DNA of 64,000 bases from Herbaspirillum robiniae (GTDB taxonomy: Bacteria; Pseudomonadota; Gammaproteobacteria; Burkholderiales; Burkholderiaceae_D), in contig NZ_NJGU01000009.1 of assembly GCF_002213415.1 (NCBI RefSeq), forward strand, positions 124,001 through 188,000, written 5' to 3'. The position numbers were made by a program, and so were the translations under genes. The notes under the pieces were generated by a model, which ran no database searches, was not told where the DNA came from, and worked only from the letters and a program-made list of their open reading frames with translations. Each line of letters begins with the position of its first letter. The first letter of the stretch is position 1. This document shows positions 23,997-26,189 of the stretch, one piece after another.

Positions 23997-24916
23997 ACTG
24001 GTTGCGCCAACACTTCGCCGCCGCCGCGGATGCGCTGCGCCACCTGCTGCGCTCGCCCGGCAATTTCCTGCTCAACGTGCTGGTGGTGTCGATCGCCCTG
24101 GCGCTGCCCTTCGCCGGGCTGTCCGCGCTGGAAAACGTGCGGCCGATCTCGGAGCAGATGTCGGTCGAGCCCGAAATCAGCATCTTCATGAAGATGGACG
24201 CCGGCCGCGACGCCTCGCAGGCCATGGGCAAGACCATCGCCCAGGTGCTCAAGGACAGCGATACCGTCGGCCGGGTCGAGTTCATCCCGCGCGAGAAGGC
24301 CTTCGACGCCCTGAAGAGCAAGACCGGCCTGGCCGACGTGCTGGCCACGCTGGGCAGCAACCCGCTGCCGGACAGCTTCGTGCTGCGCCTGCCGGGCTTC
24401 CAGAATGCCATGGACGCGAGCCGCGTCGACGACATCGCGCAAAAGCTGAAGAACCAGCCCGGCGTGGACACCGTGCAGATCGACTCCGAATGGGTCAAAC
24501 GCCTGGCCGCGCTGCTGCGCATCCTGCGGCTGGTGCTGCTGTTCCTGGGTATCACGCTGGGCGCGGTGGTGATCGCGGTGGTATTTAACACCATCCGCCT
24601 GCAGGTGATGACCCAGCGCGACGAGATCGAGGTCTCGCGCCTGTTCGGCGCCACCAACGCCTTCATCCACCGCCCGTTCTACTACACCGGCGCCCTGCTG
24701 GGACTGTGCGCCGGCGTGGTGGCGCTGGGCCTGGTGATCGCCGCCCAGCAGCCGCTCAACGAAGCCATCCTCGACTTCGCCCACCTTTACGCCTCCGAAT
24801 TCCAGCTGGCGCTGCCCAGCGCCATGGCGATCGGCCTGCTGCTGGCCATCAGCGCCCTGCTGGGCCTGTTCGGCGCGATGCTGTCGGTGCGCAGGCATCT
24901 GGCGCGCATGGGTTGA
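23993..24916 (+). CDS. ftsX: Cell-division permease-like protein FtsX
   Basis: A 307-residue inner-membrane protein with four hydrophobic segments: one near residues 22-45, then about 180-202, 225-250 and 280-300. The extracellular loop (about 50-170) between helices 1 and 2 is the part that contacts murein-hydrolase activators in studied species. It overlaps ftsE by 4 bp and ends just before a terminator, closing the ftsY-HhH-ftsE-ftsX cluster. Confidence 0.95.
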
Positions 24917-24940
24917 CGCAGGAAGTTTCAGCGCAACAAC

Positions 24941-24977
24941 AAAACGGCCGCCGGAGCAACCCGGCGGCCGTTTTTTT
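24941..24977 (+). terminator. Rho-independent terminator after ftsX
   Basis: Complementary arms AACGGCCGCCGG and CCGGCGGCCGTT enclose a six-base loop, and the right arm runs into seven T residues. Confidence 0.92.
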
Positions 24978-25075
24978 GACTGTATCCCCTTGAAATCGCG
25001 CCGGCTGCCTCTATTTTGGGAGCTCCCCCACTGCAAAAATTGTTACAGATTTTTGACCGCCTTTTGACCCGCGTC

Positions 25076-25176: not shown

Positions 25177-25203
25177 TTAGCACTCTCAAATGACGAGTGC
25201 TAG
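25177..25203. promoter_or_regulatory. CIRCE operator (HrcA-binding site) upstream of rpoH
   Basis: TTAGCACTC (25177-25185), a 9-bp spacer and GAGTGCTAG (25195-25203) reproduce the CIRCE consensus TTAGCACTC-N9-GAGTGCTAA with one mismatch at the last base. CIRCE is the operator of the heat-shock repressor HrcA, best known in front of groESL and hrcA-dnaK operons. Here it lies 87 bp before the rpoH start and overlaps a possible TAGAAT -10 element (25201-25206). rpoH is the only downstream gene, so the inference is that HrcA represses sigma-32 synthesis. Confidence 0.82.
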
Positions 25204-25289
25204 AATACCTTATCGAAATGCTCCAGTTTTAGGTTTTAAAGCATTGCTTTAATTCAAACGTCTCTTCCGCAAGGAAACAAGGAGAATCA

Positions 25290-26189
<900 letters not shown>

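Follow-up and report, generated by a model that had tools for sequence, protein, structure and literature searches.

Why should an operator for the repressor HrcA stand directly before rpoH, the gene for the heat-shock sigma factor sigma-32? In the classical CIRCE operons, groESL and hrcA-grpE-dnaK-dnaJ, an operator of the same 9-9-9 form is read by the same repressor family, and the groESL operon of the genome considered here is one of these; the target at the present locus, by contrast, is itself a sigma factor, such that repression would reach the sigma-32 regulon. Here, we argue that the element at 25177-25203 is very probably a functional HrcA operator superimposed on the sigma-70 promoter of rpoH, forming a feed-forward loop together with groESL. 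The argument draws on what can be read directly from DNA, namely the operator itself, the promoter-like elements within it, an intact hrcA gene, the arrangement at groESL, the conservation of the site and its loss together with hrcA.

A first-pass annotation of the window (the whole 64-kb stretch of DNA analysed) had placed a CIRCE at 25177..25203, upstream of rpoH, and this assignment is confirmed. The site consists of a left arm, TTAGCACTC (25177..25185, + strand), a 9-nt spacer, TCAAATGAC (25186..25194), and a right arm, GAGTGCTAG (25195..25203), and compared with the CIRCE consensus, TTAGCACTC-N9-GAGTGCTAA, it matches 17 of the 18 arm positions with a spacer of 9 nt, the sole mismatch being the last base, 25203. 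The operator ends 86 nt before the ATG of rpoH. No other match with up to three mismatches occurs in the 64-kb window, and dinucleotide-preserving shuffles of the window gave such a match in 1 of 100 cases, a mean of 0.01 per window.

The genome encodes a single HrcA of 341 aa, which carries both Pfam domains and scores 324.4 bits against the TIGR00331 cut-off of 197.2. Across the 5.53 Mb of the assembly there are two CIRCEs with up to two mismatches, one before rpoH and one before groESL, the latter being perfect and lying 118 nt 5' of groES. Allowing three mismatches brings the number of places to three, and a reversed-pattern control gives none; the third place, on contig C26 and with three mismatches, lacks an ORF of at least 120 aa within 3 kb and was taken as a chance match, a 3-kb stretch (L003) without such an ORF being in itself unusual in a genome rich in G+C. 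The 3.7 kb surrounding hrcA contain no CIRCE with up to three mismatches, and unlike the hrcA-grpE-dnaK-dnaJ type of operon the hrcA of this genome thus has no such operator nearby. A Fur-like ORF, named by eye from its translation, is convergent to hrcA (L004, 2336-2761, - strand). In another genome of the genus (G101) a third CIRCE, perfect in sequence, is found at C17:92687-92713, besides those at rpoH and, presumably, groESL.

The first-pass annotation had also proposed, as a check, a motif scan of the regions upstream of rpoH in related genomes, and here the palindrome proved to be kept; the refuting outcome named by the annotation, lack of conservation before rpoH in close relatives, did not occur. 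Among 80 named RpoH loci, which are the best 80 of at least 563 relatives and so biased to near kin, a CIRCE with up to two mismatches precedes rpoH in all 80 (perfect in 41, with one mismatch in 36 and with two in 3), at 46-177 nt from the start of the RpoH match; these loci span Oxalobacteraceae, Cupriavidus, Ralstonia, Paraburkholderia, Caballeronia, Pandoraea and others. In the family sample all 145 genomes contain one or more CIRCEs with up to two mismatches. A more even draw of 150 genomes from the order returned an HrcA match in 136 and an RpoH match in 147 (G172, G187 and G262 being without the latter), and up to 600 nt before RpoH could be read in 146 of the 147, the match in G270 starting at a contig end and G222 offering only 122 nt. 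Absence of HrcA is defined here as no PF01628 match at E ≤0.001, E. coli, on the list of controls, giving no HrcA match, and some absences may be gaps in assemblies that were filtered for completeness at 90 % (order and class) or 95 % (phylum); one HrcA match, in G225, spans 132 residues, includes a stop and was counted as non-intact.

With these definitions, a CIRCE with up to four mismatches precedes rpoH in 132/132 order genomes with an intact hrcA and in 0/14 without (Fisher 8e-20, ancestry ignored). Of the 132 sites, 125 have at most two mismatches and seven have three or four; the chance expectation for a match at four mismatches is about 0.0025 per upstream stretch, at even base composition. 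The 14 genomes without an intact hrcA have no CIRCE with up to two mismatches anywhere in the genome. They fall into seven families, and since three of these (f4, f23 and f33) also contain genomes with both hrcA and the site, more than one loss must have occurred. This comparison lends strong support to the proposal of the first-pass annotation that HrcA would regulate rpoH. One order genome, G189, has two RpoH matches (L193 and L199), each with its own CIRCE upstream, with one and two mismatches; the second of its rpoH sites, together with that of G029 from the family sample, was added to the 132 to give the set of 134 order sites used below.

The gene downstream of the operator (25290..26189, + strand) encodes a sigma-32 of 299 aa that scores 409.1 bits against the NCBIfam TIGR02392 cut-off of 323.1, and contains Pfam sigma-70 regions 1.2, 2 and 4. 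It shares 100 % identity with the RpoH of a MAG that bears the label Herbaspirillum frisingense, and 99 % with the one from Herbaspirillum sp. LeCh32-8, which suggests that the window comes from this genus. It is preceded by a ribosome-binding site, AAGGAG, read from the sequence at 25279..25284 (+). The locus comprises, in order, ftsY, a short ORF, ftsE, ftsX and rpoH, followed by SCO1, cyoE and ctaA on the opposite strand, where FtsX, RpoH and SCO1 were named by profile, FtsE was the best match slightly below its cut-off and the remaining neighbours were named from reading their translations. An intrinsic terminator lies 3' of ftsX (24941..24977, +), consisting of a 14-pair hairpin (24941-24974) and a T run, with a predicted fold of -28.3 kcal/mol (z -5.5), and was missed by a consensus scan of the + strand. 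Because so strong a terminator hairpin ends ftsX, rpoH probably needs a promoter of its own. The CIRCE palindrome was also considered as the ftsX terminator and ruled out, given the strong terminator at 24941-24977 and the lack of a T run after the CIRCE.

A candidate for that promoter is found within the operator itself. The first six bases of the left arm, TTAGCA, form a -35-like element, which is followed after 18 bp by TAGAAT (25201-25206), a pair of sigma-70-type elements that is a modest match (9/12) with a TG before the -10. The extended -10, TGC and then TAGAAT, occupies 25198..25206 (+) and is indicated by both a promoter scan and conservation; from its position transcription would be expected to start at 25212..25214 (+). 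When 81 sites (the 80 named loci and the window) are aligned, conservation outside the arms is highest at two columns, A at +28 (79/81) and T at +29 (81/81), which lie just 3' of the CIRCE and, with the right arm, complete the extended -10; the hexamer is TAGAAT in the window and elsewhere most often TAAAAT or TAATAT. Across the order, TGnTA is present in 134/134 rpoH sites and the final T of the -10 in 132/134, as against 1/29 groESL sites, this base, +29, lying outside the CIRCE; the same T is found in 46/52 sites from the class outside the order.

Left position 2 is off CIRCE in 50/134 order sites, in 49 of them through an A to G change that gives TTGGCA or CTGGCA and brings that base closer to TTGACA, while its mirror, right position 24, which is the first base of the -10, is off CIRCE in 0/134. 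Recognition by a symmetric repressor alone should not leave a palindrome so lopsided, and the departures from CIRCE at rpoH sites appear mostly to obey promoter logic. Contrary to that logic, right position 18 is off CIRCE in 7/134 and its mirror in none, and position 0 is C in 31/134 sites, further from a -35, with 30 sites starting CTGGCA or CTAGCA.

The single mismatch of the window site might be cited in favour of a palindrome that arose by chance or that survives from a lost circuit. We give this account almost no credence: chance would supply a mean of 0.01 such sites per window, hrcA is intact, the site is conserved and is lost together with hrcA, and the mismatch, which falls on the third -10 base, recurs in L005-L008, the four named Herbaspirillum loci whose RpoH is closest to that of the window.

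A second possibility is that HrcA does bind, with the main rpoH promoter lying further upstream, such that the operator would be a minor brake acting as a roadblock and sigma-32 would be set mainly after transcription. The latter is how sigma-32 is chiefly controlled in E. coli, where rpoH encodes a member of the same sigma factor family as the window RpoH, and a suitable upstream element can be named: a sigma-32-like site, CTTGAAA-N13-CTCTATTT, at 24989..25016 (+), which matches at 12/14 positions and is a possible, if weak, second promoter, overlapped by a promoter-like site called at 24990-25017 by the promoter scan. Similar sites are present in loci L005, L006 and L009, and lineage-specific autoregulation of rpoH through 24989-25016 is possible. 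As a shared feature, sigma-32 autoregulation of rpoH was rejected, the best upstream score averaging 9.6 in the 80 relatives and 9.4 in shuffles, with scores of at least 12 in 4/80 relatives and 7/1600 shuffles. Since this site is not shared, and since the most conserved columns outside the CIRCE are those that complete the embedded -10, we think it unlikely that the main promoter lies upstream.

Even less probable, in our view, is that the palindrome acts as RNA, in a leader that starts upstream and in which a CIRCE hairpin sets the stability or translation of the mRNA. An RNA-level role for CIRCE has reportedly been proposed from work in Bacillus subtilis, and the palindrome does fold well (-12.7 kcal/mol, z -4.7), as would any such palindrome, but with a start directly 3' of the embedded -10 the CIRCE would lie outside the mRNA altogether, and the leader expected from that start is no more stably folded than shuffles (z 0.16). 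The A to G changes at left position 2, with the mirror T kept in 134/134, turn A-U into G-U pairs that RNA pairing would tolerate, yet pairing leaves the T at +29 unexplained, and the loss of the site along with hrcA favours a protein as its reader. A search of the rpoH leader against Rfam for known RNA elements gave seven matches, all below their gathering scores and all within 24900-25043, around the ftsX terminator.

If the operator does overlie the rpoH promoter, its arrangement differs from that at groESL, where the CIRCE sits just 3' of a sigma-32-like promoter rather than having a sigma-70-like promoter inside it. In the family sample, 30 groES loci were recovered from 29 genomes, and a CIRCE is present at 29 of the 30, perfect in 27; the one locus without it in the 400 nt upstream is a second groES copy in G026, of the same genus (L398). 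Before all 29 of these CIRCEs there is a sigma-32-like site, which starts 29 bp before the operator in 28 cases and 28 bp before it in one, with a mean score of 12.1/14 compared with 7.9 in shuffles. It thus looks as though rpoH would be read by sigma-70 and groESL by sigma-32, with both blocked by HrcA.

For this species we infer HrcA binding, repression, the heat response, the use of sigma-70 and feedback by GroE, which together would operate as follows. At normal temperature, HrcA bound to both arms would deny RNA polymerase access to the -35 and the extended -10, and rpoH transcription would be low. Heat or misfolded protein would disable HrcA, either directly or through the diversion of GroE from it, upon which the rpoH promoter would be freed, rpoH transcribed and the level of sigma-32 raised, to drive groESL and the rest of the regulon. 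As groESL would also be repressed by HrcA, through the second CIRCE abutting its sigma-32-like promoter, its full expression would need both HrcA off and sigma-32 present, which amounts to a coherent feed-forward loop, and GroE acting back on HrcA would close it. In Campylobacter jejuni, HrcA has been shown to sense heat and GroE to enhance its DNA binding (PMC8533110), and we assume by analogy that the protein may behave in the same way here. The first-pass annotation had envisaged the negative and positive heat-shock circuits wired in series; the placing of HrcA upstream of rpoH stands, as judged from the comparison of genomes, but the wiring would not be in series only, because groESL has its own CIRCE as well as a sigma-32-like promoter and HrcA would thus have a direct effect on it besides the one exerted through rpoH.

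How far does this arrangement reach? In the same class outside the order, 101 genomes with HrcA and RpoH matches were eligible and 86 were read, of which 78 have a CIRCE before rpoH (25/25 + 52/60 + 1/1); for G319 one of two rpoH copies was read, and for phylum-sample genomes with several RpoH matches only the best copy. Where no hrcA was found the site is present in 5/32 genomes, these being 25 of 36 from the class sample and seven from the phylum sample, and the co-occurrence in the class, 77/85 against 5/25, gives a Fisher value of 2e-11, with ancestry ignored. The five sites seen without an HrcA match are L258 (G370), L260 (G354), L327 (G399), L340 (G406) and L341 (G303). Such cases may be due to incomplete assembly, to recent loss or to a different reader of the operator; for G303 the missing hrcA may be a gap, because its congener G436 has the gene. 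Outside the class but within the phylum, the site was found before 0/15 rpoH loci even at five mismatches, with hrcA present in 14/15 genomes; these loci had the best RpoH scores among 45 genomes, which for the 15 concerned we take to be Alphaproteobacteria.

A connection between HrcA and rpoH is already in print as a prediction: in 2004 a perfect CIRCE was predicted before rpoH of Geobacter sulfurreducens, at -51 (PMC545781), in a comparison that names groESL as the only constant HrcA target. Operator and target gene are the same as in the window, whereas the lineage is different, the rpoH CIRCE is listed there for one of the studied species and the portion of the account consulted mentions neither an overlaid promoter nor loss together with hrcA. 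The first-pass annotation had presented a CIRCE before rpoH as a departure from the usual groESL and dnaK targets, but the position is not unusual, given its presence in all 132 order genomes with intact hrcA and in 78 of the 86 from the rest of the class, and the Geobacter prediction. In the open-licence literature we found no report of the rpoH wiring in beta- or gamma-proteobacteria, of a promoter overlaid on the operator or of its joint loss with hrcA across the order, which is weak evidence of absence; the promoter architecture and the distribution of the rpoH CIRCE are worth testing. In line with patchy loss of the repressor, a 2011 genome paper counts one HrcA each for Laribacter and Chromobacterium and zero for two genomes of Neisseria (PMC3135505).

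Both in this genome and in most of the relatives read that have hrcA, the heat-shock response appears to have its repressor branch superimposed on the activator branch, with the rpoH promoter within the operator. If so, deletion of hrcA should raise the whole sigma-32 regulon and not GroE alone. We suggest, tentatively and with slightly more doubt than conviction, that HrcA has from early on been the transcriptional thermostat of sigma-32 in the class uniting the beta- and gamma-proteobacteria, with rpoH fixed under a CIRCE-embedded promoter in feed-forward with groESL, and that the post-transcriptional control seen in E. coli is derived, having replaced it where hrcA and the operator were lost. 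The lineages without hrcA, mostly without the operator too, would then constitute a natural experiment on replacement control.

One of these lineages retains a decayed operator. Remnant CIRCEs with up to four mismatches were not found before rpoH in the other hrcA-less genomes of the order, and the case concerns a single genus represented by G176, G219 and G259, of which G219 and G259 have hrcA and perfect sites and G176 has no HrcA match. In G176 the sequence 73 nt upstream of the RpoH match, a spacing shared with the site in G259, reads ATAGCACAC-N9-CGGTGATAA, then AAT, such that five arm positions have been lost and a -10-like TAAAAT has been retained. This is the trace that loss of the repressor would be expected to leave, because the palindrome would be kept for HrcA and the -10 for the polymerase.
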